Source of the DNA: a virus
Reading direction: 5' to 3' (one strand)
DNA length: 22,816 nucleotides
IMG/VR virus record: IMGVR_UViG_3300031951_006763
Location: 1-22,816 of that record
This document shows positions 1,574-21,572 of this stretch, piece after piece. Numbering within the stretch: the first letter of the stretch is position 1; every line of letters begins with the position of its first letter. The notes under the pieces are model-generated. The model saw nothing but the letters and a program-made list of their open reading frames with translations. It was not told the DNA's origin and ran no database searches. A program made the position numbers and the translations under genes.

Positions 1574-1764
1574 GTAGAAAGCTGTTTGAGACCGTTAACA
1601 GGGCGGCGGCAGAGTTAGATCTTGTCTATGCCCCAGACGCAGCCGCTTGGGACTGTATGCGCAGCGTAGCGCGGGTGGTAGAGGTACGTGAGCGGGAAAG
1701 GTGCGCGGTTATCTGCGAGAAGATGGGACTGCCAGAGGCGGCAGCAAAGATAAGGAAAGAATAA
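1570..1764 (+). CDS. Small phage protein with ERERCAVICE...IRKE signature, 64 aa
   Basis: I chose ATG 1570 because it overlaps the upstream TGA (ATGA). An earlier TTG at 1558 is in frame but would lie inside the membrane-protein gene. The protein is almost entirely helical, ending RERERCAVICEKMGLPEAAA and then KIRKE. This ERExCAxxCE...A..IR pattern recurs in many small phage genes and twice more in this window (genes ending at 1288 and 8645). Function unknown. The stop overlaps the ATG of the fucosyltransferase-like gene (TAATG). Confidence 0.65.
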   Translation: MSRKLFETVNRAAAELDLVYAPDAAAWDCMRSVARVVEVRERERCAVICEKMGLPEAAAKIRKE

Positions 1765-3427: not shown

Positions 3428-3436
3428 GAGAAAAGA

Positions 3437-4210
3437 ATGACCAAACTATTTATAGCTACCCCGATGTACGGCGGCCTGTGCTACGGCTACTACGCCCAGT
3501 CCCTGATGACATTACAAACTACTCTGCGTGACAACAAGATTGATACTGCTGTCAGCTTTCTATTTAACGAGTCTCTTATCCAGCGCGCACGTAACGCCCT
3601 GGCACATGGCTTTTTAAAGACTGACTTCACGCACCTGATGTTTATAGATGCTGATATCCGCTTTAACCCAGCAGATGTACTGCCTATGTTGTTAGCCGAC
3701 AAGCCAATCATCTGCGGTATCTATCCTAAGAAAGAAATCAACTGGACGCAGATACACAAGGCCGCACAGGCTGGCGTGCCACCAGACCAACTCCGTAACT
3801 TCTCAGGCTCCTTTGTGGTGAACCTGATGAACTACGCAGAGCAAGCACAGGTAGAAGTTAACTCGCCCGTAGAGATATGGAATGGCGGCACAGGATTTAT
3901 GCTAATCAAACGCGAAGTATTTGAGAAGCTAAAAGACCATGTGCCTAGCTATATAAATGACACCCATGACTTAGGTGGCAACATCGGCAAGGAACGTATC
4001 TCTGAGTTCTTTGCTACCAGCATAGAGCCTACTGGTGAACGCCTGCTGTCTGAGGACTATCACTTCTGCAAGGAATGGCGTGAGAAGTGCGGCGGTACTG
4101 TATGGGCAGCGCCATGGGCCAAGCTTGCACACATCGGTACACACATGTTTGATGGCATCCTAACGCCACAACCAGAGCAATTAGTACAACCACAGGCTAC
4201 TCCCGTATGA
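3437..4210 (+). CDS. GT-A glycosyltransferase of a phage-common type, 257 aa
   Basis: The N-terminus MTKLFIATPMYGG is a GT-A nucleotide-binding strand. NESLIQRARNALAHGFL, THLMFIDADIRF (DxD at 71-73) and a late NGGTGFMLIKREVFEKL segment form a set I know from phage-encoded transferases that have 'NxLvxxFLxTxxthLlFiDaDI' cores. The DxD should coordinate the metal and the NDP-sugar. AGGAG precedes ATG 3437 by about 8 bases. The last four bases overlap the next gene (ATGA). This is a soluble enzyme, probably acting with the two transferases upstream. The acceptor could be host O-antigen, capsule or a phage structural protein; the sequence does not decide. Confidence 0.85.
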   Translation: MTKLFIATPMYGGLCYGYYAQSLMTLQTTLRDNKIDTAVSFLFNESLIQRARNALAHGFLKTDFTHLMFIDADIRFNPADVLPMLLADKPIICGIYPKKEINWTQIHKAAQAGVPPDQLRNFSGSFVVNLMNYAEQAQVEVNSPVEIWNGGTGFMLIKREVFEKLKDHVPSYINDTHDLGGNIGKERISEFFATSIEPTGERLLSEDYHFCKEWREKCGGTVWAAPWAKLAHIGTHMFDGILTPQPEQLVQPQATPV

Positions 4211-5439
4211 GCTTCCTACCCGGAGAGACCTTTATCCCTGCCTCCGGGCAGGTAATAGGGGATAGAGAGAAAGACTACATGCACGATGCGGTGGATAAGG
4301 GTTGGCTTACTGCCGGCCAGTACAACCGCTGGTTTGAGGAAGGTCTGACCAAGTATCTAGGCTGCAAGGCCGTGCGTACTGTGAACTCAGGCAGCTCTGC
4401 TAATCTCGTTGCCTTCTCAGCTCTGACATCCCCAAAGCTGGGGGATAGGGCTATCCAAAGGGGTGATGAGGTTATCTCTGTTGCCTGCGGGTTTCCTACT
4501 ACGATCAACCCAATCATCCAGTTCGGCGCAGTGCCAGTGTTCTTGGACGTCAATACAACCCTTAACATTTGTACTAAGGATATTGAGAACGCCATAACCC
4601 GCAAGACCAAAGCTATCTTCATAGCCCACACGCTTGGCAATCCATTCAACGTAGAAGAAGTGGTGGCTCTGGCTAAGAAGTACAACCTGTGGCTGATAGA
4701 AGACTGCTGCGATGCGCTTGGCGCTGAATGGAAGAACCAGAAGGTAGGCACGTTCGGCGACTTGGCAACGTTGTCATTCTTCCCTGCGCATCACATCACT
4801 ATGGGTGAAGGTGGCGCTGTAGTCATCAACAACACTAAACTAACCAGACTGGTGGAATCATTCCGTGACTGGGGTCGTGACTGCTGGTGCGAGCCTGGCA
4901 AGGACAACACCTGCAAGCAGCGGTTCTGCCAGAAGTTTGAAGACCTGCCAGAAGGATACGATCACAAGTACGTATTCACGCACGTAGGCTACAACATGAA
5001 GATCACAGAGATGCAGGCAGCCTGTGGTTACGGCCAGCTAGAACAGCTCGAGCGATTCGTGCAAATGCGCAGGGACAACTATAAGTTTCTGCAAGATGCG
5101 CTGATAGACCAGAAGGATCTATGGCTGCCGACAATCTACCCAGATGCTTGGCCTTCGTGGTTCGGTTTCCCTATCACTGTATCCCCGCGAGCTAAGTTCA
5201 AGCGGGATGAGCTGACTTGGTATTTGAATGAGCATCAGATTGGAACGCGGCTAGTTTTTGCTGGCAACGCTACCAAGCAGCCATTCATGAAGGGGCAGAA
5301 CTACCGCATACATGGCAGCCTAGATAAAACAGATGAGGTGATGAACAACACGTTCTGGGTTGGGGTTCAACCAGCTCTTACCCGCGAGATGCTGACCTAC
5401 GTGGTGGATACCATCAATAAATTTATAAAGGACTACTGA
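4207..5439 (+). CDS. rfbH: E1-type CDP-4-keto-6-deoxyglucose 3-dehydratase (RfbH/AscC/DdhC-like)
   Basis: This 410-aa protein of the DegT/DnrJ/EryC1/StrS fold lacks the PLP lysine. The site reads SFFPAHHITMGEGG, with His195/His196 in its place, the hallmark of PMP-dependent dehydratases (E1, ColD) rather than aminotransferases. It also contains C168-X57-C226-X1-C228-X7-C236, exactly the C-X57-C-X-C-X7-C pattern that ligates the [2Fe-2S] cluster of Yersinia E1. This separates it from ColD, which lacks the cluster. E1 removes the C3 hydroxyl of CDP-4-keto-6-deoxy-D-glucose, with electrons from reductase E3 (AscD/DdhD) through the cluster, giving 3,6-dideoxy-4-hexulose. IEDCCDALGA (164-173) holds the Asp facing the pyridine nitrogen. 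No E3 gene is visible in the window. The start overlaps the previous stop (ATGA) and the stop overlaps the next ATG (TGATG). Family confidence is high; use of CDP rather than another nucleotide is from homology. Confidence 0.92.
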   Translation: MSFLPGETFIPASGQVIGDREKDYMHDAVDKGWLTAGQYNRWFEEGLTKYLGCKAVRTVNSGSSANLVAFSALTSPKLGDRAIQRGDEVISVACGFPTTINPIIQFGAVPVFLDVNTTLNICTKDIENAITRKTKAIFIAHTLGNPFNVEEVVALAKKYNLWLIEDCCDALGAEWKNQKVGTFGDLATLSFFPAHHITMGEGGAVVINNTKLTRLVESFRDWGRDCWCEPGKDNTCKQRFCQKFEDLPEGYDHKYVFTHVGYNMKITEMQAACGYGQLEQLERFVQMRRDNYKFLQDALIDQKDLWLPTIYPDAWPSWFGFPITVSPRAKFKRDELTWYLNEHQIGTRLVFAGNATKQPFMKGQNYRIHGSLDKTDEVMNNTFWVGVQPALTREMLTYVVDTINKFIKDY

Positions 5440-6452
5440 TGAGAGTAGCTGACTGGATAGCAGACTACCTGTGGGAGATAGGAGTCAGCAGAGTGCATGG
5501 CCTGATGGGCGGTGGCGCAGCAGGGTTGAATGATGGATTCATTAAACACCGTGGCATTGAATACATCTGCTACCACCACGAGCAGGGCGCTGGACATGCA
5601 GCTATAGGGGAATCCAAGTACACAGGCAGATTGTCTGTGGTGAACCCCACCACAGGCTGCGGCGGGACTAACTGTGTGACCAGTGTGTTGAACGCTTGGC
5701 AGGATGGTGTGCCAGTCCTCTTCCTGTCAGGTAACGTGCGGCATGACAACACAGCTCATTGGTTAAATACATACAAAGATGTACGCGTTCGGCATTACGG
5801 TGCGCAAGAGCATCACATCATAGATACGGTTAAGTCGATTACCAAAGCTACTGGGTTTATTAGCTACCCAGAAGATGTTGAGTACATGATGCACTTAGCC
5901 GTAGATCAAGCCACACGCGGCAGACCAGGGCCAGTATGGGTGGATGTTCCTAGCAACATACAAGCAGCACAGATGCCAGAACATACGTCTTTAGAATATG
6001 TATCTGCTAAACCATTGAAGGCATTCTTTGACCACGTAAAGCTAACCTCACAACTGCACCTTGCCGAACGCCCAATAGTCTTGGCTGGCGTAGGCATCCG
6101 TCAGTCAGGATGCGTACATGGGTTTATGAATTTTGTAGAGAAGTTCCAGCTACCGTTCGTTACTACTTACGGAGCGCAGGATTATGCACCGTTTGATCAC
6201 CCGCTGAACATGGGAACTGTTGGAGTTCGCGGCAGCCGTACTGGAAACTTTTCCATGCAGAACGCAGACACGCTTCTTATCCTTGGTACATCTATGGGCG
6301 CACCAGTAATAGGGTACGACCCTAAACAATTCAGCCCACAGAGCTACAAGATCTATGTAGATATAGATGGAGGCGAACTAAACAAAGACATCATCCCCGT
6401 ACAAGAAAAGATACGGGTGCCGCTAGATCAATTCTTTGGAGCCATGCTATGA
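5439..6452 (+). CDS. ThDP-dependent C2-transferase, N-terminal and central domains (YerE/acetolactate synthase-like, split)
   Basis: This 337-aa half-enzyme holds the Pyr domain and central domain of a thiamine-diphosphate enzyme of the acetolactate synthase type. Residues 1-180 are the Pyr domain: ADWIADYLWEIGVSRVHGLMGGGAAGL, then YHHEQGAGHAA with the conserved Glu48 that activates the thiamine aminopyrimidine, then NPTTGCGGTN, and GPVWVDVP closing the domain. Residues 190-337 are the TPP_enzyme_M (central) domain, with RPIVLAGVGIRQSG, QNADTLLILGT and a VDIDGGELNK. The PP domain that binds the diphosphate is missing here and is supplied by the next gene. In YerE this enzyme takes a two-carbon unit from pyruvate and adds it to C4 of CDP-3,6-dideoxy-4-hexulose, the product of E1, which is encoded directly upstream. 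AAAGGA lies upstream of ATG 5439. Plain acetolactate synthase activity is possible but the context argues against it. Confidence 0.88.
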   Translation: MRVADWIADYLWEIGVSRVHGLMGGGAAGLNDGFIKHRGIEYICYHHEQGAGHAAIGESKYTGRLSVVNPTTGCGGTNCVTSVLNAWQDGVPVLFLSGNVRHDNTAHWLNTYKDVRVRHYGAQEHHIIDTVKSITKATGFISYPEDVEYMMHLAVDQATRGRPGPVWVDVPSNIQAAQMPEHTSLEYVSAKPLKAFFDHVKLTSQLHLAERPIVLAGVGIRQSGCVHGFMNFVEKFQLPFVTTYGAQDYAPFDHPLNMGTVGVRGSRTGNFSMQNADTLLILGTSMGAPVIGYDPKQFSPQSYKIYVDIDGGELNKDIIPVQEKIRVPLDQFFGAML

Positions 6453-7183
6453 CAAAACAAGAATGGTTGGACAAGTGCAGCCACTGGAAACAGAAGTGGT
6501 CTCAGCGGGAATACCTGCCGGACGATAACGGTCTGGATGTATATGCAGTGCTAGATGCCATAAGCAAGTACAGCGCAGATGACGCTGTGATTATGTCCGA
6601 CGCGGGCACAGCTTTCTACACAGTACCGCAAGCGTACAAGTTCAAAGGTACGCAGCGGTTAGTCATGAGCCAGTCTCAGGGTGACATGGGCTGGGCATTA
6701 CCTGCTGCTATCGGCGTAGCTAAGGCTGGTGCTAAACAAGTTATCTGCATCGTAGGTGACGGCAGCTTTATGTCTAACATGCAGGAGCTTGCTGTTATCC
6801 GTGAACACAACTTGCCTATCAAGATTGTGGTGCTTAACAACAAAGGCTATCTCAGCATCAAGAACACGCAGTCTAAGTTCTACGAAGGCAGAGTACACGG
6901 CACTAGCCCAGAGACAGGCGTATGGTTTCCTAATTTTGTTGAGTTAGCTGAAGTGTTTGGTATAGAGAATCATCAGACATGGAAGACAAAACACATGAAT
7001 GAGCTATTTGCAATAAACTTTTCTCAAGAAATTGATCCTGTATTGATTGATGTTATTTGCACCCAAGACCAGCAAGTCCTGCCATCACAGTCGTTTAAAG
7101 ACGGCAAGCAAGCACCTCTGCATGACATGATTCCATTCCTGTCTGACGAGGAACTCCAACAAGAAATGGTGGTAAAACTATGA
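6449..7183 (+). CDS. ThDP-dependent C2-transferase, diphosphate-binding domain (YerE-like, split)
   Basis: This 244-aa second half of the split enzyme is the PP domain. It contains SDAGTAFY, QSQGDMGWALPAAIG and the thiamine-diphosphate/Mg site GDGS (103-106) followed after 24 residues by NN (130-131), the classic GDG-X(24-27)-NN motif. The tail APLHDMIPFL is like the C-terminus of O-antigen acetolactate-synthase-like proteins. The gene starts with ATGA overlapping the upstream stop, with GGAG 7 bases before the ATG, so independent translation of a second subunit looks real rather than a sequencing frameshift. Together with the upstream product it makes a full-length (about 580 aa) enzyme; Pyr and PP domains from two chains must meet to build each active site. 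The ATGA coupling should keep the two in equal amounts. Confidence 0.88.
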   Translation: MTKQEWLDKCSHWKQKWSQREYLPDDNGLDVYAVLDAISKYSADDAVIMSDAGTAFYTVPQAYKFKGTQRLVMSQSQGDMGWALPAAIGVAKAGAKQVICIVGDGSFMSNMQELAVIREHNLPIKIVVLNNKGYLSIKNTQSKFYEGRVHGTSPETGVWFPNFVELAEVFGIENHQTWKTKHMNELFAINFSQEIDPVLIDVICTQDQQVLPSQSFKDGKQAPLHDMIPFLSDEELQQEMVVKL

Positions 7184-8091
7184 AAATAGCCATACTGGGT
7201 GCAACCAGCGCCATAGCAAAAGATCTGATCCTATCCTTTAGCGACGAGCATAAGTTGGAACTGTACTCACGCCGCCTAAGTGATGTGACTACATGGATGC
7301 TGCAAAATAACCTGCACAACTTTACATCGCAGGATTACACAGAATTCAAACACGCTCGCGACATAGACGTCATCATCAACTTCGTAGGTGCTGGCAGTCC
7401 TGAGAAGGTCATCAAGTTGGGCGAGCAGATCTTTGAGATTACTGAGACGTTTGACCGCATGGCGTTAGATTACATAGGGAAATATCGTGAGTGCAAATAC
7501 ATCTTCATCTCCAGCGGAGCAGTCTTCGGTGACAACTTCAGCACACCGGCAGACATCGACAAAGTATCCGCGTTTCCTCTCAATAACCTTCAGCCCAAGC
7601 ATTACTACGGGTACGCCAAGGCGATGGCAGAAGTCAGGCACAGGATTACCGACCGCAATATCTTTGACCTTCGAGTGTTCAATTACTTCAGCCCTATGGT
7701 GAACATCAACTATCGGTTCATGATTACTGACATGATCCGTGCTATCAAAGATAAGTCTGTGTACAAAGTAGACCGTACTCCTATCGTGCGGGATTATGTC
7801 GGGCCGCTAGACTTCTATCAGATGATCAACGTCATGCTGACTAAGGACAAGATGAATACCGCCATAGATATGTACAGCCGCCAGCCTGTATCTAAAGACA
7901 GCCTGTTGACTGCTATGGCACAGAGATACAAGCTAGAGTACGAGACAGTAGGAGCGCAGGTAGGACTGCCAGCTACAGGTGTGAAGGAGAAGTATTACTC
8001 AGTCAATACTGCGGCGTATGCCATAGGGTACAGACCTACGCTGTCCTCACTTGAAAACATATTCTTGGCTGTAGACAAGATATTGAAATGA
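7180..8091 (+). CDS. Extended short-chain NAD(P)-dependent reductase/epimerase (YerF-like)
   Basis: This 303-aa Rossmann enzyme starts MKIAILGATSAIAKDLI, where GATSAIA (7-13) is the dinucleotide-binding loop. It shows IFISSGAVFG (108-117) with the catalytic Ser region and HYYGYAK with Tyr143 and Lys147, the YxxxK pair of extended SDRs. The 'GATSxIAKDLI' start is typical of reductases found next to E1 and YerE-like genes in O-antigen clusters. There YerF reduces the ketone of the newly added acetyl branch to complete yersiniose A. It overlaps the split ThDP enzyme by four bases (ATGA), so E1, both YerE parts and this gene form one translationally linked unit. A 4-keto reductase or epimerase role on another deoxysugar is the main alternative. 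Confidence 0.85.
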   Translation: MKIAILGATSAIAKDLILSFSDEHKLELYSRRLSDVTTWMLQNNLHNFTSQDYTEFKHARDIDVIINFVGAGSPEKVIKLGEQIFEITETFDRMALDYIGKYRECKYIFISSGAVFGDNFSTPADIDKVSAFPLNNLQPKHYYGYAKAMAEVRHRITDRNIFDLRVFNYFSPMVNINYRFMITDMIRAIKDKSVYKVDRTPIVRDYVGPLDFYQMINVMLTKDKMNTAIDMYSRQPVSKDSLLTAMAQRYKLEYETVGAQVGLPATGVKEKYYSVNTAAYAIGYRPTLSSLENIFLAVDKILK

Positions 8092-8832: not shown

Positions 8833-9103
8833 AGAGTATATGAACGAAGTAGCTGGCATCGGGTGCGTGATGTGTCACCACCTTGATCTCGGCTACTCAC
8901 CTGCCGTTCTCCACCATCCGCGCGATGCTGTTGGTGGGGCGCAGCGGGCATCAGACTGGCTTGTGATCCCCCTCTGCCCTGAACACCATGTTGGGAAGTC
9001 TGGATACCATGGGTTAGGAAGCAGGGGGTTTTATACAAGATACAAACTCTCAGAGTGGGATCTCATGGCAATGACTATTGAGAGGCATCATACTGCTTCT
9101 TAA
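8819..9103 (+). CDS. Ref-type (RecA-dependent) HNH-like nuclease, 94 aa
   Basis: The protein has the layout of the recombination-enhancement nuclease Ref of phage P1 and its many phage relatives: GCVMC (C16, C19), LHHPRD (H32-H33), SDWLVIPLCPEHH (C53, H56-H57), then GYHGLG with H64 and an FYTRYKLSEWDL end. The two CxxC/CxxH pairs build the zinc sites, and the HH pair is the HNH-like catalytic strand. P1 Ref makes RecA-filament-guided double-strand breaks; short versions such as this lack the long N-terminal DNA-binding tail. The start is uncertain: GTG 8819 has AGGA upstream, while ATG 8840 and TTG 8798 are also in frame. Its 3' end overlaps the convergent polyvalent-protein gene by 29 bp. 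Confidence 0.8.
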   Translation: MKTVKEYMNEVAGIGCVMCHHLDLGYSPAVLHHPRDAVGGAQRASDWLVIPLCPEHHVGKSGYHGLGSRGFYTRYKLSEWDLMAMTIERHHTAS

Positions 9104-12100
9104 CCATTATCCTTGCGTCTTCCATCTGCTTGGCTATCTCACCAATGATTATCTTCATCCGGTCAATCTCTTCCTTCTTCTGAGCGCCAGTCATATTCTC
9201 ATCATTACGAATGGCTTGTATGGCTTGGCGCATCTTTGACATATCCTTAGAGGCATTGTCATAGAACTTAGCCATGGCAATCTTGTCGCCCTTCTCCTTC
9301 AAGATTTCTTGAACTTTGTCTGCTTGACCTAGCTGGGCAAAATGCCGCATGTCAGCGTAAGCCTGGGCTATTTCTTTGTTGTTCTGATAGAACGCGGTGA
9401 CGTACTTAGATTGTGTGGTTGGCAAAGACTTGATAAATCCCATAGACATAGTATCCGTCCAGTTATTATCTGGGTATGCAGACTTAGAAAATGGTTGTAC
9501 GGCATAGTGCGATAACCATGACGCTGTACCACCTAACCAACCAAAGTAAGCTTTGATAGCATAGTCTGTTTGTACGGGAGATATTTCCGCAGACTCAGGC
9601 AGGAACACGTTAGTTCCTTTTGATAATGCTATAGCCAACGGGCCAGTTTTTTCAGCTATACGTTCAGCCTTGGAAAGTCTTTCCATGCCAGCAGTCTCAA
9701 TAGGAGCGCCAGTAAAACTGTCTTTGTTAGCATATAAATCTACTAACGGTTTAACTATTTGCGGTAGGTTTACAGCAAAAGTGTCAACCACCATACGGGA
9801 CAAACTTTCTTTAAACACTTTACCTTCAACGCCTTGGTCAAATATTTGTTCAGCCGTTCTTTCTACCATTGTGCCAAACGCGCCAACCTCAAACGGTTTA
9901 GGTATACGGAAAGCACTATCCATCCCAGGTAGTTTAAACCACCAAAAGTTATCTCTATCCCACTGCTCACGCTTTTGAAACTCTTCGTCATCCTCAAATG
10001 CTGCATACAAAGCTAATGAAGCTAAAGACACAGCAAGCATTACAGTAGAGAATTGTTGGGCTTTTTGTTTGTCTGTGCCTTCAATTTCTTTACCAGTAAT
10101 ATAGTTGTAAGTAACCCTACCAGTAGGCACAAGACCATCACGACCAAGTTTGTATAAACCTTGTGTGCGAGCATTTAAGAATGGAACAATTTGTGTTAAG
10201 TAGCGGAACGTAGGCCATGCCCCCTGCATAGAGAAGTCAAGCATATCTCTAGCATAAAAAGAAGATTCAAGATGCGACATTCCTTTAGCCTTAAGCTCAT
10301 TGTACAAAGCCATACGGTTAACCGCTTCTGTCTTATTGCCAAACTCTTCGTACTTATCCCGCAAAAATATCAAACCATTCTTAATCTTTTCATCTGTATT
10401 AAGAATAGTATTTGCTTTAACGCCTTTTTTAATTAGGCGTTTCACTAACCTGGCTTGATCACCTTCAACAATACTTCCAAAATTAAAGATTGCTCCACCA
10501 GCAAGAGCTGAAATATGTGCTGGATTTTTTTTGTCTGTAGATGCCCAGTTTTTAAAAACTCTTGATACTGGATCTTTACTAACTTCACTTACAGCACCAG
10601 CGGCAGCAGAGTCTCGGAATAAGTTACGAACTTTAAACGCAGGGGATATTGTCACACCATACTGAAGTATGTTCTTGAAGTTACGAGCAACGTCCAAGAA
10701 CTTAGACTTTGGCCCCATATACCCAATAGCCATGATGGACTCAACTAACATAGGTTCTGTAACTTCAAAATACGCTGGTCGTCCATCTATCATGGTTTTA
10801 ACTACAGAACTACCCTTTCTTGGCGTGTATTCTGATGTGGTGTATTCCGCTTTAAGATCACCAACAAGCTGTCCAGTTTTTTTAGTGTAAACCTTTCCAC
10901 CTTTACCATCTTCATTTGGTCTGTATACAAAACCTGATTTTAAGTTAGGTTGTGCTGCGTTCATATTTATTGCCGAACGAAGCGTAGCATTAGCAGCTTC
11001 ATTCTTCATAGAGGAAGAAAGAATGTGGCTCCAATTACGCAGGGTATTTTCCATCAAGTCACCAAACGGTTTCTCACCACCTTTTAATGCTTTGGAAAAG
11101 TATTGGTTGACTAGACCAGACCTTGTTGCTGCCGTTTGTACATCACCCGTTTCTTCCATAACTTTGTAAAACGGAATGTAGTTAATATCGTTAGCATAAA
11201 TTTCATACGCTTCTTTGTTAATAGTTCCTTGCGCAAGTGCAATGTTAAGTACAGAACGGTTCAATTTGTTCATGTCTTTTTGCACTTCTTTATAAACGTC
11301 AATGCGAGGACGACCATTTAATGTGCCAGACGCAAGCATATTTCTTTTTGCAACAATATCTGGATCAATAGATGTTCCTTTAACCGAGGACTGTAATGCC
11401 CTTACTTCTTTTTTCATTTGTTCTATTTGATCACTTATTTTGTTTGCTTCTTTAACTGTTTGTGCAGAACGACGTTTGGAACCAAGGTCTTGAATCTGAC
11501 CTTTGATATTGTCTATCTTGTCATAAGCTCTGCGTGATTTCTCATATATAGAATGTTCTCTGTTTAAGGCAACCCATATCTGGTAGCTATCAACCTCAGC
11601 TCCAACCGGCTCAAGTGCTGCAATTAAACCCTTAGTATCTTTTGCAATATCTAACGCGCCGTCGGTAAGTTTTACTTCTCCATTAAACAGCAACCCCTCA
11701 ACCGCACCATCTACCGTCGTAGACATGCGAGCTTTCATGTAGGCTATTGGATCAATGTCTCTGATAGACCGGTACTGATCTGCTATACCCTGCGCAAGTT
11801 TTTTCCAGAACTTATCCCGCATACCATCAAGCTTGTCGATGATGGTTTTATTTTCTGGTGCAAAAACAGGCACAAGTTCACTATATAAATCGTCCGGTAT
11901 ATGTGCAAACTGACTTTTAGGTAGAGTGCGCTTCTGCAAAGCTTTCTGTGCGGCAGTTTTGGCTCTTTGTACTGCGGTTTGCCTGCCTTCTTGTTGATCA
12001 TCTAATCTATCTTGCGTCCGTTTTGGTTCTTCAAAAATATCAACAGACTCGTCAGCAACCTGCGGCGTACTAATACCAAACTCCCTACCAGAGCCTGACG

Positions 12101-15077
12101 CTTTGAAACCGGCAGCAATATCTTCCACCGGAACTACCAGCGTCTCTTCTGTCAGGGAAACCAGTCGCTCTAATGCGCCCTGATGTGTTTTGCTAATTGC
12201 CAGCAAGCGACGGATAGCATCTACAAAACGAACAAATGCGTTTTTATCTTTAAAGTCTACGTCAGCCAAATACTTTTGAACTTCAATCTCTGACATACCG
12301 TAGGAAATTAACTCATGTACGTCTTTTAACGCTTGCCGAGTATTTAACTTTGCTGGTACAGGTACGTTGTTAGCTTGATCTGTTTTGACTTTTTTAATTA
12401 TAAACTTGCGCAATTTTTCAAGGTCATCAATAGGGCCAACTATATTTTTGTTAGCAGACTTCTCTGTAATTGAAATTTGCCCTTGAGTTGCAAGGTGCAA
12501 CATCTCATGTAACAGAGTGCGGTAATTAGTGCCCTCAACTTTATTAGCTTGACCTGGAACATTTGGCCCATTGATAGTTACTTCATACCTAGCAACCGGA
12601 GAAACATATCCAGTTACCATGCCATAAGTATTTTGGCGACGTTTACTGCCGCGCAACACTTTGAACGACATCGGTATATTACGATCCTCCATTGCTTTTA
12701 CGCGAGCACGCACAGCCTGCGCTACGACTTTGGCAAAACTATTAGGCGCGTTAGATATCAGATAGTCAGATACCTGCACCACATTCATGCCATCTATTTC
12801 ATTAGCAATCTCTGTGGTTGATTTGTCAATCTTGTATTCTTGCTTCTCTACCTGATCCTCTGCCACTGGTACCGTCACCGTTGGTTCTGATCGCAGAACA
12901 GAAAACACATCTTCTAGTGGGCGACTAACGGCAACATTTCCAAACATATCTGGCTCTGCGGTTGCTTGTTCTGCTGCTTTGTTTGCTTCTGCCGCCAAGG
13001 TTGTCAGCGAGTCACCAATCCTGCGAGGTGCATTTTTATTGGCTGCAAACATGCTGACTATTTCACGAGTCAAAGGATCTAACTCAATATCACCTTGCTC
13101 TATAAATTCAGCCAAGTCTTTATTTTGCCGACGAGCATTTACTGCCATCTCAGCAGCCTTAGTGACGTAACTACGGATATCGTAATCGCCAGCCTCACTT
13201 AAGTTGGACATAGCAGGCGCAGCTATAGCCATGCCTTTTAGAATTTGTTGTGCTTCTGGATCAGTTGTCTCAGCAAACAAATCTATCAACGCATCATTTT
13301 CATAAGCGCGAGCAAAAAGCGCGTTTGATAAACGCATCTTAGCTAATGGATTGGGCTGACCTGATTTATTGATAAGTTCTGCCTGCTCTTCTTTAGGCAT
13401 AGTTGCAACAAATTGCCGCAATGAACGGATGCTTGGGGAGCCATCTGCTAAGAACTCAATGCCTTGTAGATCAAACCTGCCCATATCAACTTTAGCTTGC
13501 TCAGTAGGAGACATGCCTAGTTGTTGTCGGACATTACTAATGTCTGCGATGTTTGGCACTAACGAAGACTTGGGCATAATACGCACAAGCACCGGCTGCT
13601 CGATAGCAGCAATCACGCTTGCATCAATACCGTGTTCAGTATCTTGTAAAAGCGGATTAACATAGTCGCCGTATGGGCCAACAGCGTACAGTTTTTGCAA
13701 ACCAGCTACACGACCATTACCAGCTACAGGCCGGATACCTTCAAATGTAGGGTCTGCATATTCCGCTACAGTGCTGCCATCTGCTCGATTGCTAGGCGTA
13801 ATTTCACGCGCATCTATCACGGCATATTGAATTGGGAATTTACTGCCATCAGATGCTGATACTGTATCTATTCTGCCTAAAGCTTCTTCTGAAATAGGCA
13901 CATCACTAATAACTACAGGTGCGCCCGCCCCAAACTCTCTAGATACAGATAACTTGTTGTAATCAGGCCTGTTGGCTATGTCGTTCATTTGACCAATTGA
14001 ATTAGGTCTTGACCGATCACGATTTTGTATATCCGCAAATGACAAACCAAAGTCCTCTGGCTTGCCTTCAAAGTAATTTTGCATAGCCGCTACAGCATCT
14101 TCTGGCGGTTTTGGTGCCTCTGATAACTTTGGTGGTCTTGTAATTATTTCAGGTGGTTCAGCAGGTGCTTGCGGGGCAGCCTTAGCCGGACGTTCAGCAG
14201 CAGGTTTTTCTTCAGGTGGAAGAGTTTCCACTGGTGGCTTAGCTCGCGCTCTTTCTATTGCACCACCAGGGATAGATATAGCTCCACCAAGGATTGCGCC
14301 ACCCACAAAACTGTCAAAGTATTCTTTGCGGGCTTCTTCGTCAGTAATAGATAGACCAGCTTGGGCACGTTCAAGCACTTGCTGCCCTGCTTCTGTAGCG
14401 CCCTCAACGCCTGCCGTCTTAGCTGCTGGCAAAATGTACTTACCAAGAATACTTGTTGCTGCTTGCTCTGTAAGTGGAGTGCCAGCTTTGCTAAACAATT
14501 TACTAATTGCAGGCATAAACTTAAAGCCAATAACATCTAGCGCCGCTTGCGGAACAGATGCAGCCATAGCGTTTACTACCTTGGCATCTTTGGCGGATAC
14601 GCCCTCTTCTAACTGACGGGAAATATTAGAGCCAGTGAACTGTGCAGCAGATGCTGCGCCTGCGGCACCCATAGCAAGCAAACCCGCAGGTGCTACGGCA
14701 GCAGCAGCTATAGGCGCTACCATATAAGGCAAAGATTGACCTAGCAAACCAGTCACATAATCTATAGGACGTTCTGTAAATTCAGGTTGTTTGTATATCT
14801 CGCCAGCTTTCTCACGCTGTTTGGCTGCATATTCTTCAGCGCCACCTATGCCAGCAGTCGCACCTATAGCACCAACGTCACCCTTTAATCTTTCATAGCC
14901 TGACTTTAAACCAGCAATAAAACCAGTTTCAGGCTCTTTTTTGGGAAGGGCGGCAGGTTCTGCGGGCTGCGAAACCATAGCAGACTTCAAAGCATCAGCC
15001 AAAGCCCGAGCGGCCTGTTGATCTCCCGCGTTGTGCGCGCTTAGGAAGGCGCGTTCAAGCTCCTGGACTGTAGCCAT
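9075..15077 (-). CDS. 2000-aa large polyvalent protein (ParB/DdrB-like, zincin-like and LPD38-like regions)
   Basis: This is the last gene of the virion operon and probably an internal protein ejected with the DNA. Regions in order: an N-terminal helix; a hydrophobic Ala/Gly segment at about 107-145; a Pro/Ala/Glu-rich linker at 278-325; and a DdrB/ParB-superfamily-like domain at about 340-690, with NRDRSRPNSIGQMNDIA, YAVIDAREITPSN and GNGRVAGL (453-460). Next is a zincin-like region at about 780-960 with HEMLH at 857-861 and a possible third ligand in HELISYG (Glu922). Then come a helical coiled-coil region at about 1180-1235 and a C-terminal LPD38-like region at about 1450-1860, with RNLFRDSAAAG, RYLTQIVPFLNARTQG and a membrane-like helix at 1677-1695. 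A helical tail follows. Such multidomain proteins are described in phages and conjugative elements as 'polyvalent proteins' that enter the host with the DNA and act against host defences. The ATG directly follows the upstream stop (TAAATG). Confidence 0.82.
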   Translation of the reverse strand: MATVQELERAFLSAHNAGDQQAARALADALKSAMVSQPAEPAALPKKEPETGFIAGLKSGYERLKGDVGAIGATAGIGGAEEYAAKQREKAGEIYKQPEFTERPIDYVTGLLGQSLPYMVAPIAAAAVAPAGLLAMGAAGAASAAQFTGSNISRQLEEGVSAKDAKVVNAMAASVPQAALDVIGFKFMPAISKLFSKAGTPLTEQAATSILGKYILPAAKTAGVEGATEAGQQVLERAQAGLSITDEEARKEYFDSFVGGAILGGAISIPGGAIERARAKPPVETLPPEEKPAAERPAKAAPQAPAEPPEIITRPPKLSEAPKPPEDAVAAMQNYFEGKPEDFGLSFADIQNRDRSRPNSIGQMNDIANRPDYNKLSVSREFGAGAPVVISDVPISEEALGRIDTVSASDGSKFPIQYAVIDAREITPSNRADGSTVAEYADPTFEGIRPVAGNGRVAGLQKLYAVGPYGDYVNPLLQDTEHGIDASVIAAIEQPVLVRIMPKSSLVPNIADISNVRQQLGMSPTEQAKVDMGRFDLQGIEFLADGSPSIRSLRQFVATMPKEEQAELINKSGQPNPLAKMRLSNALFARAYENDALIDLFAETTDPEAQQILKGMAIAAPAMSNLSEAGDYDIRSYVTKAAEMAVNARRQNKDLAEFIEQGDIELDPLTREIVSMFAANKNAPRRIGDSLTTLAAEANKAAEQATAEPDMFGNVAVSRPLEDVFSVLRSEPTVTVPVAEDQVEKQEYKIDKSTTEIANEIDGMNVVQVSDYLISNAPNSFAKVVAQAVRARVKAMEDRNIPMSFKVLRGSKRRQNTYGMVTGYVSPVARYEVTINGPNVPGQANKVEGTNYRTLLHEMLHLATQGQISITEKSANKNIVGPIDDLEKLRKFIIKKVKTDQANNVPVPAKLNTRQALKDVHELISYGMSEIEVQKYLADVDFKDKNAFVRFVDAIRRLLAISKTHQGALERLVSLTEETLVVPVEDIAAGFKASGSGREFGISTPQVADESVDIFEEPKRTQDRLDDQQEGRQTAVQRAKTAAQKALQKRTLPKSQFAHIPDDLYSELVPVFAPENKTIIDKLDGMRDKFWKKLAQGIADQYRSIRDIDPIAYMKARMSTTVDGAVEGLLFNGEVKLTDGALDIAKDTKGLIAALEPVGAEVDSYQIWVALNREHSIYEKSRRAYDKIDNIKGQIQDLGSKRRSAQTVKEANKISDQIEQMKKEVRALQSSVKGTSIDPDIVAKRNMLASGTLNGRPRIDVYKEVQKDMNKLNRSVLNIALAQGTINKEAYEIYANDINYIPFYKVMEETGDVQTAATRSGLVNQYFSKALKGGEKPFGDLMENTLRNWSHILSSSMKNEAANATLRSAINMNAAQPNLKSGFVYRPNEDGKGGKVYTKKTGQLVGDLKAEYTTSEYTPRKGSSVVKTMIDGRPAYFEVTEPMLVESIMAIGYMGPKSKFLDVARNFKNILQYGVTISPAFKVRNLFRDSAAAGAVSEVSKDPVSRVFKNWASTDKKNPAHISALAGGAIFNFGSIVEGDQARLVKRLIKKGVKANTILNTDEKIKNGLIFLRDKYEEFGNKTEAVNRMALYNELKAKGMSHLESSFYARDMLDFSMQGAWPTFRYLTQIVPFLNARTQGLYKLGRDGLVPTGRVTYNYITGKEIEGTDKQKAQQFSTVMLAVSLASLALYAAFEDDEEFQKREQWDRDNFWWFKLPGMDSAFRIPKPFEVGAFGTMVERTAEQIFDQGVEGKVFKESLSRMVVDTFAVNLPQIVKPLVDLYANKDSFTGAPIETAGMERLSKAERIAEKTGPLAIALSKGTNVFLPESAEISPVQTDYAIKAYFGWLGGTASWLSHYAVQPFSKSAYPDNNWTDTMSMGFIKSLPTTQSKYVTAFYQNNKEIAQAYADMRHFAQLGQADKVQEILKEKGDKIAMAKFYDNASKDMSKMRQAIQAIRNDENMTGAQKKEEIDRMKIIIGEIAKQMEDARIMVKKQYDASQ

Positions 15078-16496
15078 TTATTGTCCACCATATTGTTTCA
15101 ATGCTGCCGCAGCTTCGGGACTAAGTTTAAATGGATTGATTGCTGTATTTTGGCCTGGCGCACCACCGGCACCTGGTTTGTTAACTTCTTCATACATTTT
15201 ACGAGCTTTTGCAACTAACTGCGATTCGCTCAAACCTGAATTTATTGGATTGGCGCTAACAGCTTTCATAGCATCATCCATAGAGTAAACATTTTGTGGT
15301 TTACCACCTTCTTTAACCCGCATCCAATCTCTCATATACTGCTCGGCTTTTTCTGGGCCTTGTTTTGCAAGTATCTCGTGATATTTACCAAGAATTTGCT
15401 GTCCCTCAGTCGGCCTATTAGCATACCTCTCATGAATCCTAGCAACAGCAAGTTGGTATTCACCAGACATTTTTGCAACTTCAAGCGCCCTCTTAGCGTT
15501 CTCATCAATACCGTATTTAGTAACAAACAGATCTGATGATTTCTCTTGTGCTTTGTTAAACTGATCAATTTGTTTATTTTCTTGATCTTCTTTTCTAAGA
15601 AGAAGCGATTGATATTGACTAGCAGCTTTGCCAGAAGTATCCCGCTTCATGCGATCTTCCGCCAACGTCAACTCACGTTCAGTTTTCTTAATGTCTTTTT
15701 CGTTCTCACGAATTTCTTTCAAAGCTCCGCTGTATTGTTGTACCGCTTGGCGACCAACATTACCCAAAACTTCAAACTCCTGACCACGACGAGCGCCCAT
15801 CAAACCAAGGCCAGCCATTAGCAAAGCTTCGCCTTTAGCTTCTTCGCGTCTACCTTTTATTTCATCTCGGCGACCAGCTTCTTCTTGGCGCATACGTTTA
15901 TACAAGTCTGGATCCACACCAGCCATCTGTTCTGCTTTGCGGCTTATATCAAACTGCTCCTGAAGACTTGGATCTTTCATGGGAGCGTACTCACGCAACT
16001 TATAACCACCAGGCAGTGTTTGTGCATCACTCTGTGGCATAGTTGCCAGTGCAGCGTCAGCTTGTCTGCTTGCTCGCACGTAATCTTCTGGTCTGCCACC
16101 ATCTGCAAACGCAACTATCCCGCCGCCTGCATAATCAGGTAAGTTTGTAGGTAGAGCAGCCACGCCATCGCTGTAAGGTAATGCACCCATAATCCCGCCA
16201 TCTGCCGCCATCTGTGGTGGCATCTGACCTTGCGGCATCTGCGGGGGCTGACCCATCTGCGGAGGCATACCTTGACCTTCGGCAGTTGGAGCTGCGCCTA
16301 ACACATCTTGCGCTACCGTAGTCTGTGGAGGAGTCATAGCTGACTTAGTTATGCGGTCAATCATCATGCCAGCCATCACAGCTTCTTGTGGGCCTACTAA
16401 TCCCATCTGTACCATGCGCTGTAAATCTGGCTTACTGTATTTAGTAGCTAGCTCGCGTACTTGATCAATTCGTACATTGAAGTCATCGCGTTTCAT
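15078..16496 (-). CDS. Internal virion/structural protein, 472 aa
   Basis: The N-terminal 60 residues are helical. Then come a Pro/Gln/Met-rich stretch (about 76-96, repeated MPPQMGQ-like units), a glycine motif YAGGGIVAFADGG at 122-134, a long charged helical region (about 255-335, coiled-coil-like, ending in KAQEKSSDLF) and a C-terminus that ends in SPEAAAALKQYGGQ. The GGGIVAFADGG motif is something I associate with structural proteins of marine and freshwater podovirus-like phages; its role is unknown. Position between the 372-aa and 2000-aa genes suggests one of the internal (ejection) proteins, comparable in place to T7 gp15 (inference). AGGAA precedes the ATG by about 7 bases; only 2 bases separate it from the previous gene. 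Confidence 0.75.
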   Translation of the reverse strand: MKRDDFNVRIDQVRELATKYSKPDLQRMVQMGLVGPQEAVMAGMMIDRITKSAMTPPQTTVAQDVLGAAPTAEGQGMPPQMGQPPQMPQGQMPPQMAADGGIMGALPYSDGVAALPTNLPDYAGGGIVAFADGGRPEDYVRASRQADAALATMPQSDAQTLPGGYKLREYAPMKDPSLQEQFDISRKAEQMAGVDPDLYKRMRQEEAGRRDEIKGRREEAKGEALLMAGLGLMGARRGQEFEVLGNVGRQAVQQYSGALKEIRENEKDIKKTERELTLAEDRMKRDTSGKAASQYQSLLLRKEDQENKQIDQFNKAQEKSSDLFVTKYGIDENAKRALEVAKMSGEYQLAVARIHERYANRPTEGQQILGKYHEILAKQGPEKAEQYMRDWMRVKEGGKPQNVYSMDDAMKAVSANPINSGLSESQLVAKARKMYEEVNKPGAGGAPGQNTAINPFKLSPEAAAALKQYGGQ

Positions 16497-16498
16497 AA

Positions 16499-17617
16499 TT
16501 AGTTCCTAGACAAATTGTGTACGCCCAGCCCCATTAAACCGCCTTCTGCACTACCAAACAGTTTAGATGCGCCGTACATAGCCGTTCCTGCGCCAGCAAG
16601 TTGACCGGCTAATGATGGAGGTGCTTGATATAACTGCTGCGTAGTTTGTTGCGGAATACCTTTAAGCATCTCAGCCAAGAACGCAATCTGCTGGTATGGA
16701 TACTGTTTCTGTGTCAGGAAGTCTTGGTAATCTTGAGACATTCTCTGCTGTTCCATAGCCTGACGTTGCGCGCCAGCCGCACCCATAGCATTGATAATGT
16801 CCTTCTGCATACCAAACTGTTGTTGTCCCAAACCACCCAATTGCTGTGCTGCTTGCAACTGTGTTTGTAAACCCTGCATCCCCATGCCTGCGCCATACTG
16901 TCGTGACTGTTCTGCCAGACGCTGTGCTTCCAGAGCTGCTTGCTGGTTTGCTTGCTGGGCTTGTAGCGCACGAGCCGCTTCTGTGCCATACAGATTCTGC
17001 GCTTGTTCGTAAGCAGCCTGCATACCCTTCTGCTGTATATCGCCTTTCTGTTGTGCCAGATTACGCGCAGCTTCTGCTTGCATAATTGCCTGCCGAGATC
17101 CGCCATACGCGCCTGACTTAACAGCTCCGGCTTGCATTTGCTGACCAGTAATATCTGCCTGACGTTGAGCTTCACGATTCTGTATATCTATTACGTTTTG
17201 CACATAAGGCGACATGTACAAGCCCGCTAATCCTGGCTGGGTAAAACTGCCAGTGCCTATGCCTTGAGCTTGGAATTGTTGTGGGACGTAATTAAACTGT
17301 CCTGCTGTCTGTCCTGCCTGCGCAGCAAACTGTGTAGCCGGTGCCAACTGTTGTGCTGGGCCAAGATTAGCTACGGCCTGCTGGCTAGATAATTGCAGCG
17401 GATCAAATCCAGCTATACGTTGTCCACCATACGGAGTGTATCCAGCAGTGCCCTGAGCAACAGCCCTCTTAGCCATCTCACTGACCATAGGCTTAAACTC
17501 TTCTGGATAGGAGAGCGTAGTCTGAGTGCTGGATGTTGGAGTCTGACCACCACCTTCTCCACCCATGTTAAAAGTAAACCACTCAGGGTTAAAGAATAAT
17601 TTTAAAAATTTAAACAT
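16499..17617 (-). CDS. Gln/Ala-rich virion protein, 372 aa (internal core-type)
   Basis: The protein starts MFKFLKLFFNPEW, then has a Pro/Thr-rich stretch and a large helical region (about 140-300) very rich in Gln and Ala. Its core, MSPYVQNVIDIQNREAQRQ at 135-153 followed by QQMQAGAVKSGAYGGSRQ, is a pattern common in tailed-phage proteins encoded among the late virion genes. I set the start at 17617 because AGGGAG lies 7 bases upstream; the open frame extends 38 codons further into the upstream gene, which has its own frame there. An in-frame ATG at 17566 (MGGEGGG) is a weaker option. The C-terminus AEGGLMGLG echoes the glycine motifs of the neighbours. Function inferred as core or DNA-ejection protein. 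Confidence 0.8.
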   Translation of the reverse strand: MFKFLKLFFNPEWFTFNMGGEGGGQTPTSSTQTTLSYPEEFKPMVSEMAKRAVAQGTAGYTPYGGQRIAGFDPLQLSSQQAVANLGPAQQLAPATQFAAQAGQTAGQFNYVPQQFQAQGIGTGSFTQPGLAGLYMSPYVQNVIDIQNREAQRQADITGQQMQAGAVKSGAYGGSRQAIMQAEAARNLAQQKGDIQQKGMQAAYEQAQNLYGTEAARALQAQQANQQAALEAQRLAEQSRQYGAGMGMQGLQTQLQAAQQLGGLGQQQFGMQKDIINAMGAAGAQRQAMEQQRMSQDYQDFLTQKQYPYQQIAFLAEMLKGIPQQTTQQLYQAPPSLAGQLAGAGTAMYGASKLFGSAEGGLMGLGVHNLSRN

Positions 17618-18056
17618 GTAAATGCTCCCTGCGGTAATCGTCAAATCGTTCCGCAACCATTTCTTTCCAAACTTCAGGCATGTACTTGGCTGCTTCAACA
17701 GGGCCAACACATACATGAACCATGTACGCAATAATATTGCCAGCGGAATAACGAAGGTTATGTGCTATTTCAATGCCATGCTCATCTTTGTTACGCTCAA
17801 AAGCATTTGCTGTCTTGTATGCAGATACAACAGTTATCCACATGGGTAGAACATAAGGCTCAATCAATTTATAAAACTTATTGTTTGGCAAATATACCAA
17901 CGCAATCAAAAATGCTTCGTTGATTTCGTCTTCAGTTTTATCTTTATCTTTGTCAACCAAATCATCCCAAATATGGGCTAGTCTTACAAGCATACGGAAA
18001 ACAGCTAGTGCGTCTTCATTGCCACCAAACCATTCTAATTTTCCGTTTTCACTCAT
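17610..18056 (-). CDS. Conserved phage protein with aspartate-rich DDxxD motif, 148 aa
   Basis: This small all-helical protein has FRMLVRLAHIWDDLVDKDKD near the start (DDLVD at 31-35), then NEAFLIALVYLPNNKFYKLI, and a Gly/Asn-containing helix NLRYSAGNIIAYMVHVCVG. The DDxxD-type motif after a hydrophobic helix resembles the first aspartate-rich motif of isoprenoid (terpene/squalene) synthases. The protein is too short for that fold (families have about 250 aa or more), and a second NSE/DDxxD motif is not clear. I know similar short 'HxWDDLIDxD' proteins from phage virion operons, of unknown role. It starts four bases inside the 1162-aa gene (ATGA) and overlaps the next gene by 8 bp. Confidence 0.75.
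   Translation of the reverse strand: MSENGKLEWFGGNEDALAVFRMLVRLAHIWDDLVDKDKDKTEDEINEAFLIALVYLPNNKFYKLIEPYVLPMWITVVSAYKTANAFERNKDEHGIEIAHNLRYSAGNIIAYMVHVCVGPVEAAKYMPEVWKEMVAERFDDYRREHLHV
17625..17630 (-). promoter_or_regulatory. Shine-Dalgarno AGGGAG deciding the start at 17617
   Basis: On the minus strand AGGGAG lies 7 bases before ATG 17617, inside the last codons of the 148-aa gene. It selects this ATG over the upstream in-frame ATG at 17731, which would overlap the neighbouring gene by 122 bp. Confidence 0.7.
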
Positions 18057-21000
18057 ACAGGCAACATCTTTTCTGCGCGGCTATTTACCGCTACCTTACC
18101 TTTGCCTATGCTCTTGCTTCTTGCCCGCTGTACACGATCCATCATGGCGTAAAGTTTTCTTGCGCCTGCTTCTGTAGATCCGTTTCCAAGCTCCGAGACT
18201 ATGCGTGCGGGAACCACAAACTCACCATCAGCAAGACGGGCAGGCTGGCGGTCGCCAATAGAAGCAGGAATAGAATCACTAACTCCATCCCCTGGCCCGC
18301 GAAGTAATCTTCCTCCATCGGAATAACCTCCTAAGTTATATCCAGCAATACCACCTGATGCCATAGCTCTAGGCTCTTGTGCAGCTTGTGCAGCTTGTGC
18401 AGCCTTTACTGCTTCTTCTACTGTTGGATATTGACCAAAACCAAATATGTTTGGTTGTGATGCAGTCAATCCAGATGTTGCAGCAGGTAAACCATAAGTA
18501 GTTTTCTGCGCAGCAAGGCCAGGCTCACCTAACTGAGAATATAAATTTGTCAGGCCAAGACGTTGACTAATATCAGCATACGGTAGAGCGCCTTCAATCG
18601 TAGACTTAGGTTGAACTGCAAATGGGTTGTACTGTGCAACGTTAGGCCCAGTAGGTACATAAGGTGAAGGTTGTGGTGCCATAGCTTGTGAAGCAAAAGG
18701 CTGTAACTGCTGCGCTCTGTAACCTTCGATTTCTGCTTGCGATATAGCTGGCGCACTTGGCGTAGAAATAGCCGGGACAAACGGTTTAACAAGTTGCTGT
18801 TGATATTGTGGGCTACCTTTTATCTGCTCTTGTAAAGCAGATATGTTCATGCCAGTACCTTTGAGACGGCTCAATTCTTCCATAGTTGGAGGTTTGCCAA
18901 ATACATCCTGATAGTAGGATGCAATTTGCTCCATAGAAGCTGGGCCTTCTGATTCAACTAATGCTTGTTTTTGTGCGCTAGTAAATGCAGCTTCGTTAAT
19001 CTTGTTTAAATTTTGCAGATAAGCATCACTAGACGTCAAAGCTCCACGAAGATTATTAAAGTTAGTAATCTTATTAGCTGGATCTTTAAAGTATGCCAAC
19101 TCACCCTTGGTCATGTCACGACCCCAGTAGTACTGAGCCTGCTGGTTCAAATCATCATTGGTAAACTTCTGCGGCATAGTAAGTTCAGCAAGTGTTCCAA
19201 TGTTCTTGGACACATCTGCCTCTGATAACTTCTTACCTACATACTTGTTCATCTCCGTTTGTGTTGGAGAGCGGCCAGCCAATTCTTCATAGACTCGGCG
19301 TACATCGCTTTCTTCCATAATCTTCTTAGTTGTGTCCAGTCCAGGAACTTTAGTTAACTTACTATAAGAAGGTGTTACTTTCTCAGGCAAATATTGTCCA
19401 CTCTTAGGATCGTAGACAACCTTGCCTTGTTTAGCCATTGAAAGATCACCTTCCAATGTTTTAATTTGTTTTTGTTGATCTGCGCTAAGAGTTCTAACGC
19501 TGCCATATCCCTGTTGTTCTGGGTTTTTCTTAATAGCATCTATCTTTGCTTGTATAGCAGAAACATCTCCAGCAGTTTGCGCTGGTTTTGTATCTAGCCC
19601 GCGAGCTTGCAATCCAGAACCACGCTTGGTTTCTTCTCTAAACTGAGCTATACGAGAATCTTTAGCTTTAGTAGCCTCTTCGTACTCACCCTGTTGTTTG
19701 TTGTACGTTTCTTCTGCGCGACCTATTAAACTTTGAATGCCAGTCTTTTTTGCCGCTTCAAGTGCGGCTTTGGCTTTCTCAGCTTCAGACTTTTGTTTGC
19801 CAATTTCTGAATCAAATCCTTTGCTCAGGGCGGTAAGATCATCACCTTTAATGTCGCCAGAGAAACCTGTGTAACCCTTTTTGAACACATCTGTTTCAAA
19901 GTTACGCAGTGCTTGGCGTTCTTTAATTTCAGTATCTAAATCTTTTACGCGATTGGTATATTCATTAGTTACGTCTTTAAACGCACTGCTTTGATCTGTT
20001 TGTATACCTTTTAATTCAGACGCACGCCCAGATTGCCAACTAGACAAATCTTTGTTCGCATTGGCTTTCCATTCGTTTAATTCTCTTTGTCTTTCTTTCT
20101 TTTCGTTTGCATCTCTAATTGCGTTGATTTCTTTTTGACGAGATGAAAGTTCACTACTAATATCTTTTTGTTTTTGTTTTAACTCATTAGATGTGTCTTT
20201 ATTAAAACTATTGATTCTGTCTGTGTATTCTTTCTTTAACTCTGCTGTACGCTTATCTGCCTCAGCTTTGGCTCTAGCTTTGTCAGCAGCGCGTTCTTTT
20301 GCAAACGCAGCATATTCTTTGGCTGCATTCTCTTCAGCTATTTGAGCTTCTGATTTTACTGGGCCGCCTTTTTTAAGCGCAACTATCCCGCCACTTGCCA
20401 GCTTTTGTTCGCCGGTATAAGGGTCAATATTTTGATAACCATCTGGCTGAAATACATTCTGGGATATAGGATTGTTTTTAGGTACCGAATATCCATACGG
20501 CTTGATATTAGACATAGGATAATTAGTATTAGCACCAACAGTATTCTGCTGTGACATTCTCTCCACTGGCAGATTAGCTAATCCACCGTCAGCAAAGTAC
20601 AGACGCTCAGAAGAACCACCGGGCGCGCGAGGCGTAGGGTTGTAAACAGATGCGCCACCTAATTGCATTTGACTTGCTGCTTGGGCTTCCTTCTTCTTGC
20701 GCTCTTCTTCCATAAGGAATGGAGCCATAGCTGCAAGGTAATTGCCTTTGTTCTCTTTGATGAAATCTGGGTTCATCAACTTAGAGAAATCCATACCCCC
20801 AAACATGCCTTTGGATTTGGCTGCTTCTTCTAATACTTTAGTTGGAGCTTGTGCTGCTTGTTGCGCAAAAGCTTGTTGCTGAGCAATTTGTGCTGTGGTT
20901 AATTGTGGAGGAGCAATGCCTCCAGAATACGCAAGTTGTCCTGCACCAGCTCCTGCACCAACAGGCGCAACAGGAGCGGCAGATGCAATTGGCGCAGTCA

Positions 21001-21541: not shown

Positions 21542-21572
21542 AACGCACCTTTAGAAAATTTTGTCAATAGTA

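Follow-up and report, generated by a model that had tools for sequence, protein, structure and literature searches.

Branching of a sugar by formation of a carbon-carbon bond is a rare step. The chemistry of YerE, a carboligase dependent on thiamine diphosphate (ThDP), is known from the literature (PMC12247030), and in Pseudomonas WCS417 the genes ddhA-ddhD, yerE, and yerF have been assigned (PMC4509608); in 2016 the reductive step in the synthesis of yersiniose had yet to be characterised (PMC4753412). A 2025 review of the carboligase class regards viruses as an unexplored source (PMC12247030). As to phages, sargassum viruses carry rfbH together with O-antigen genes (PMC11295528), and HTVC023P-type pelagiphages show multi-gene transfers between phages (PMC9599517). 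Our literature search found no paper on yersiniose or YerE in phages, on a sugar-branching reaction encoded by a phage, or on a split carboligase. Here we describe a candidate locus of this kind in the IMG/VR virus record IMGVR_UViG_3300031951_006763, positions 1 to 22,816 (hereafter the window, i.e., the whole stretch of 22,816 bases that was analysed; no host is assigned to the record). Four linked genes of the window are predicted to encode an E1-type (RfbH) 3-dehydratase, the two parts of a split YerE-like carboligase (ThN and ThC) and a YerF-like short-chain dehydrogenase/reductase (SDR). Judging from these sequences, the phage operon would make a C4-branched 3,6-dideoxyhexose, probably attached to a glycan, and we assign this reading a probability of roughly 0.7.

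A preliminary description of this DNA had placed four linked genes with ATGA or TGATG junctions at 4207-8091, and both the open reading frames and the junctions proved to be as claimed (Table 1): as read from the letters, ATGA stands at 4207, 6449, and 7180, and TGATG at 5437-5441. The cassette is larger than these four genes, as three same-strand glycosyltransferase genes (1764-4210; GT10, GT2, and GT-A) lie upstream, travel with it and are kept in nearly the same order among relatives. The block recurs, whole or in part, in 16 other related viral contigs, found by searches with ThC and SDR. The ratios of nonsynonymous to synonymous substitution rates (dN/dS) against three relatives are 0.04-0.05 for E1, 0.12-0.16 for ThN, 0.14-0.26 for ThC, and 0.08-0.13 for SDR, which indicates that all four genes are kept functional by purifying selection. 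Considering this recurrence and the selection acting on the codons, the cassette is not a product of chance. For the wider comparison, an alignment search retrieved 286 viral stretches encoding relatives. We read the 80 best of these, which show 51-80% identity to ThC; for cellular relatives the highest identity was 39%. Near-identical contigs are included in these counts.

The assignment of the first gene to the E1-type 3-dehydratases was confirmed. Its product scores 635 bits against the NCBIfam RfbH model NF011936 (cut-off 423, E 5e-191), and its closest solved structure is PDB 3bcx (E 1e-152), which we take to be the Yersinia E1. In the alignment to 3bcx the catalytic histidine (PAHHITMGEGG) occupies the place of the aminotransferase lysine, and all four cysteines of the [2Fe-2S] cluster are kept in the CC, C-x-C and C positions; an aminotransferase reading of this protein was rejected on account of these residues. 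The histidine and the cysteines are intact in the E1 proteins of both sets of viral loci that we distinguish, the window group and a second viral group. In the E1 tree the former lies with Pseudomonadota E1, including that of Yersinia (the window E1 is 58-59% identical to Pseudomonas E1), and the latter forms a branch of its own, so that, according to the tree, the E1 enzymes of the two groups are of separate descent. Despite this, genes of the viral ThDP clade are linked with an E1 gene in the one group as in the other, and where viral loci extend far enough to tell, E1 is almost always present. Such repeated pairing with two E1 lineages is the best argument for E1 and the split enzyme acting in one pathway. 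Besides E1, the second viral group encodes a further PLP dehydratase-like protein of the His type, which has no Fe-S cysteines (L153:1927-3126, L197:887-2092, L210:2744-3913 and similar).

The ThDP enzyme was correctly described as split and YerE-like: ThN contains the TPP_enzyme_N and TPP_enzyme_M domains, ThC contains TPP_enzyme_C, and the division falls at the linker joining the central and PP domains. The catalytic glutamate is found in ThN (HHEQ) and the ThDP-Mg motif in ThC (GDGSFMSN...LNN). The best solved relative common to both parts is PDB 8rph, which we take to be JanthE; PDB 5ahk is presumably PpYerE. The phage enzyme scores 301 bits with 31% identity against JanthE and 203 bits with 28% identity against PpYerE. 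The CDG motif of 8rph in our alignment agrees with the description of JanthE in PMC12247030. In the tree, the viral ThDP enzymes form one clade (100/100) within the JanthE-like group (100/100), and this group is joined to the PpYerE-type enzymes at 100/99, apart from the acetohydroxyacid synthases (AHAS); forcing the viral enzymes together with AHAS was rejected by the approximately unbiased (AU) test (p=3e-8). The viral clade does not belong to the PpYerE branch and is sister to cellular enzymes without an E1 link at 92/90. Hence the enzyme stands outside the YerE lineage proper, in a separate viral clade. By its descent and predicted chemistry the phage enzyme, with its two chains, is YerE-like, but not a standard member. 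Several loci of the sister clade (L074, L075, L085, and L092) contain NeuB-type sialic acid synthase-like, FabZ-like and AMP-ligase genes, which perhaps represent a different carbon-branching pathway.

By sequence the last gene product is recognised as an SDR (Pfam Epimerase, E 4e-12), with weak matches in Pfam and PDB and without a close NCBIfam model. Its likeness to YerF, also proposed in the preliminary description, was judged against the SDR gene directly following yerE in Pseudomonas. Eight Pseudomonas loci encoding an enzyme of the YerE type were compared; in each, the genes of E3, RfbF, RfbG, E1, and YerE stand in a row, and in seven of them the gene directly after yerE encodes an SDR 38-41% identical to that of the window (over ~300 residues, E 1e-70 to 1e-84), the eighth being without it. 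The order claimed to be yersiniose-like, E1-YerE-SDR, is thus also that of the Pseudomonas clusters. Five Burkholderiales-type clusters (Duganella, Rugamonas, Massilia, Roseateles, and Rugosibacter) display the order E1-ThDP-SDR, with RfbF and RfbG also present and with SDRs 38-46% identical to the window SDR. Neither of the placements named beforehand as contrary to the proposal, the ThDP enzyme with IlvB and the SDR with unrelated reductases, was found. The AlphaFold model of the SDR (pLDDT 88) has its best PDB match in 8v4g, a Campylobacter NADP-dependent CDP sugar alcohol reductase (TM 0.79-0.85), and this fold match, along with the homologues located after yerE and other ThDP genes, makes the role of a reductase likely. 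A fold search of BFVD yielded nothing but viral NDP-sugar SDRs of a general kind (12-18% identity), and the plasmid search gave no match to the SDR.

From gene content and order, catalytic residues, phylogeny, selection and the conservation of the split we infer the reactions as well as their donor, nucleotide, acceptor and benefit. E1 would remove the C3 hydroxyl of a host NDP-4-keto-6-deoxyhexose, CDP-4-keto-6-deoxy-D-glucose being the likeliest, at the expense of electrons from a host reductase. ThN and ThC, contributing the catalytic glutamate and the ThDP-Mg motif, respectively, would decarboxylate a 2-oxo acid, most likely pyruvate, and join its acyl unit to the C4 ketone to form a tertiary alcohol, a step supported by the YerE chemistry known from the literature (PMC12247030). 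The ketone of the new branch should then be reduced by the SDR with NAD(P)H, and the sugar may be transferred by the GT10, GT2, and GT-A enzymes, most likely to a host surface polysaccharide. The core chemistry is well supported; yersiniose A as the product, CDP and pyruvate are tentative details.

Several observations weigh against this scheme. RfbF, RfbG, and E3 were found neither in the window nor in the window-group and long relative contigs searched; the complete CDP-3,6-dideoxyhexose pathway, in which they accompany E1, is therefore not present there, and both the NDP-4-keto-6-deoxyhexose precursor and the electrons must be supplied by the host (E3 is also seldom near in cellular loci of the ThDP relatives). 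The CDP linkage of the preliminary description, derived from E1 alone, was for this reason overstated. JanthE-type bacterial clusters (many loci, L076-L138) usually contain genes, named by eye, of an MhpE/MhpF-like aldolase and acylating aldehyde dehydrogenase, and the donor may therefore exceed pyruvate in length. The usual donor of GT10 enzymes is GDP-fucose, so not all of the glycosyltransferases encoded here need use the branched sugar. Finally, the closest sister clade among the cellular ThDP enzymes has no link to E1; the gene linked with it is, by eye, NeuB-like, i.e., of sialic-acid-synthase type, and the substrate is thus not fixed by phylogeny alone.

It is possible, though we do not favour it, that the same chemistry proceeds with a longer, hydroxylated 2-oxo acid or on another nucleotide (e.g., dTDP), the product being erwiniose- or caryophyllose-like instead of yersiniose-like. 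The ThDP enzyme is, by the scores given above, nearer JanthE than PpYerE, and JanthE accepts longer donors, while ErwE prefers functionalised donors larger than C4 (PMC12247030). With JanthE as the nearest characterised enzyme and with MhpE/MhpF-type genes in the surroundings of the family, the two-carbon branch from pyruvate claimed in the preliminary description goes too far. In the second viral group, the split enzyme has dTDP-glucose 4,6-dehydratase-like genes beside it (293-307 bits, below the cut-off of 365) and, in several loci, a class-I aminotransferase gene between E1 and ThN (L191:7834-9000, L156:7831-9000, L197:7783-8952), whose product could convert an amino acid to the 2-oxo acid used as donor. 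Taken with the aldolase and dehydrogenase genes of the JanthE-type clusters, these genes indicate that donor and nucleotide may vary between phages. The window-group cassette itself, however, is without an aldolase, aminotransferase or RmlB-like gene, the window E1 groups with CDP-pathway E1 of Pseudomonadota, and it is directly after yerE that the YerF-like SDR stands in the Pseudomonas clusters; moreover, the Rugosibacter locus L118 combines a JanthE-like enzyme with a YerF-like SDR, MhpE/F not being found at the locus. In two Pseudomonas loci (L116 and L235), YerE-type and JanthE-type ThDP genes are located side by side after E1.

As to the acceptor, decoration of the virion or of phage DNA, and not of the host surface, seems unlikely to us. 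Phages that glycosylate their virions are known, and the three linked glycosyltransferases are compatible with other acceptors; nevertheless, the cassette has the direction of the replication-type genes and is convergent to the virion genes, which slightly favours use in the infected cell, and the AlphaFold model of the GT-A protein (phrog_1574), weakly matching GtrB, ArnC, GlfT2, and mannosylglycerate synthase, has in the first two some resemblance to surface-polysaccharide enzymes.

Whereas YerE-like carboligases are single polypeptides of about 570-620 aa, the predicted phage enzyme consists of two (337 + 244 aa). The ThDP gene encodes a single chain in 80 of the 80 cellular loci; among the 79 viral loci showing both halves it is split in 75 and fused in four, and the start/stop overlap ATGA is found in 72 of the 75 split ones. 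One contig, L016 (61,156 bases), was excluded from the junction counts; its cassette and most of its genes are frameshifted, and it looks like a low-quality assembly. In trees the fused viral genes nest inside the split clade, with moderate support for their exact place, and for this reason look like re-fusions; a natural fusion occurs, e.g., at locus L197. That the split stems from a frameshift, be it an error of sequencing or assembly or a programmed one yielding a single fused protein, is very improbable, even though the gene is fused in four viral loci and a T-run precedes the junction in a few: the same overlap recurs in many separate metagenome samples (an assembly frameshift is rejected on this ground), ThC of the window has its own GGAG 7 nt upstream, the 15 junctions read showed no slippery heptamer in common, and ThN and ThC are both under purifying selection. 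The notion that the two proteins stand apart from the sugar genes and form a viral acetolactate synthase of overflow or branched-chain amino acid metabolism can hardly be upheld, because acetolactate-synthase-type NCBIfam models, from which a generic annotation would derive it, match with scores all far below cut-off, the tree and the AU test reject IlvB identity, and the genes overlap those of E1 and SDR, E1 being alongside in almost all sufficiently long viral loci.

By these comparisons the split, which the preliminary description mentions only in passing, is the mark of a virus-only clade of YerE-like carboligases, which is new here and which occurs both in podovirus-like phages of ~61-67 kb and in larger phages. 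In 50,697 GenBank phage records the SDR has no match, and the ThDP halves match only IlvB-type acetolactate synthases at <=32% identity. The earlier statement that no described phage carries the set thus stands for these records, but not for uncultured viruses, in which it is common: close relatives are present in many uncultured phages and in no isolated phage among the GenBank records. On a broader scale, we would tentatively propose, with somewhat less than even confidence, a virus-owned, mostly two-subunit clade of ketone carboligases. On at least two occasions it would have been joined by 3-dehydratases that differ in ancestry; it would have passed from phage to phage across lines of descent, and its products would be branched sugars that the hosts are not known to make.

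Table 1. Predicted features of the window, the cassette genes first
Feature	Coordinates	Strand	Basis
E1 / RfbH, PMP- and [2Fe-2S]-dependent NDP-4-keto-6-deoxyhexose 3-dehydratase (predicted), 410 aa	4207..5439	+	NF011936, PDB 3bcx, residues, tree
ThN, PYR and central domains of split YerE/JanthE-like ThDP carboligase, 337 aa	5439..6452	+	Pfam TPP_enzyme_N and _M; best PDB match 8rph; catalytic Glu in HHEQ
Split junction: GGAG, 7 nt, then ATGA (ThC start overlaps ThN stop)	6438..6452	+	Read from sequence
ThC, PP domain as separate protein, 244 aa	6449..7183	+	Pfam TPP_enzyme_C; best PDB match 8rph; GDG...NN ThDP-Mg motif conserved in alignment
YerF-like SDR, predicted reductase, 303 aa	7180..8091	+	Synteny-matched homologues in Pseudomonas and Burkholderiales-type clusters; fold match 8v4g
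Glycosyltransferase family 10 (fucosyltransferase-type), 315 aa	1764..2711	+	Pfam Glyco_transf_10 E 1.4e-17; kept upstream of cassette in relatives
Glycosyltransferase family 2, 238 aa	2711..3427	+	Pfam Glycos_transf_2 E 1.2e-7; homologues in 17 loci of second viral group
GT-A-fold glycosyltransferase, phrog_1574, 257 aa	3437..4210	+	PHROG E 1.2e-44; AlphaFold model pLDDT 73.5
Virion/DNA-ejection block, convergent to cassette (2000-aa polyvalent protein, DNA ejection protein, virion protein)	9075..22777	-	PHROG and Pfam matches; order kept in long relatives

The window is phage DNA, marked as such by the block of virion and DNA-ejection genes: the left part is encoded on the plus strand, and everything from 9075 to the right end on the minus strand. 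Its gene order is also found in longer relatives. One of them, G003 (61,180 bases), looks complete, as a direct repeat of 127 bases is present at its termini. The closeness of G003 to isolated phages is seen in its major capsid protein, with 62-71% identity to the counterparts in Synechococcus phage MinM2, Planktothrix phage Pag-Yong1, Pelagibacter phages HTVC023P and HTVC027P, and phage DSL-LC04; with the last of these, the terminase shares 58% and the portal 44% identity. Judging from these matches, the window is part of a podovirus-like phage of ~61-67 kb. In the protein search of the GenBank phage records no carrier of the SDR surfaced among these five phages. No tRNA genes, which might have given a clue to the host, were detected in the window or in the scanned parts of relatives, and the counts of promoters and terminators were not above those of shuffled sequence, with none on the plus strand within 1764-8091. 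The 2000-aa protein of the virion block (9075-15077) has ddrB-ParB and LPD38 polyvalent-protein domains and is possibly ejected together with the DNA. A conserved protein of 340-372 aa with an RGGDK motif and without a Pfam match (F12) is encoded in 10 window-group contigs, e.g., G003 (oriented 23036-24154) and G008 (oriented 24897-25919), and adjoins the cassette in some.

The split enzyme, if its predicted function is correct, represents a ketone carboligase that occurs naturally in two parts and is open to direct expression and testing, and with the phage SDR the reductive step of yersiniose synthesis could be examined on a small scale. The wide spread of the set in uncultured phages suggests that synthesis of branched dideoxysugars during infection is common, with consequences, if true, for surface remodelling, receptor blocking and superinfection.

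Compared with the yersiniose-type cluster ddhD-ddhA-ddhB-ddhC-yerE-yerF (Yersinia pseudotuberculosis O:6; Pseudomonas WCS417 and relatives), the phage locus has the same order of E1, YerE-like ThDP enzyme and SDR in the position of YerF, but is without ddhA, ddhB, and ddhD (RfbF, RfbG, and E3), its ThDP enzyme, divided into two chains, comes from a different lineage, and its genes lie beside virion genes. PpYerE belongs to the same larger clade as the phage enzyme, apart from AHAS, yet to a separate branch, and is a single chain. JanthE is the closest characterised ThDP enzyme, and among the JanthE-type clusters (Duganella, Rugamonas, Massilia, Roseateles, and Rugosibacter) the gene order is shared in five loci; JanthE, however, is a single chain of ~600 aa with a CDG motif, in contrast to the two chains and GDG of the phage enzyme, and its clusters usually add the MhpE/MhpF-like genes, whereas the cassette of the window is without an aldolase gene. 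With the phage cassettes of the sargassum viruses (PMC11295528) and the HTVC023P-type pelagiphages (PMC9599517), the locus shares phage-borne nucleotide-sugar genes together with glycosyltransferases, and the exchange of several genes at once.

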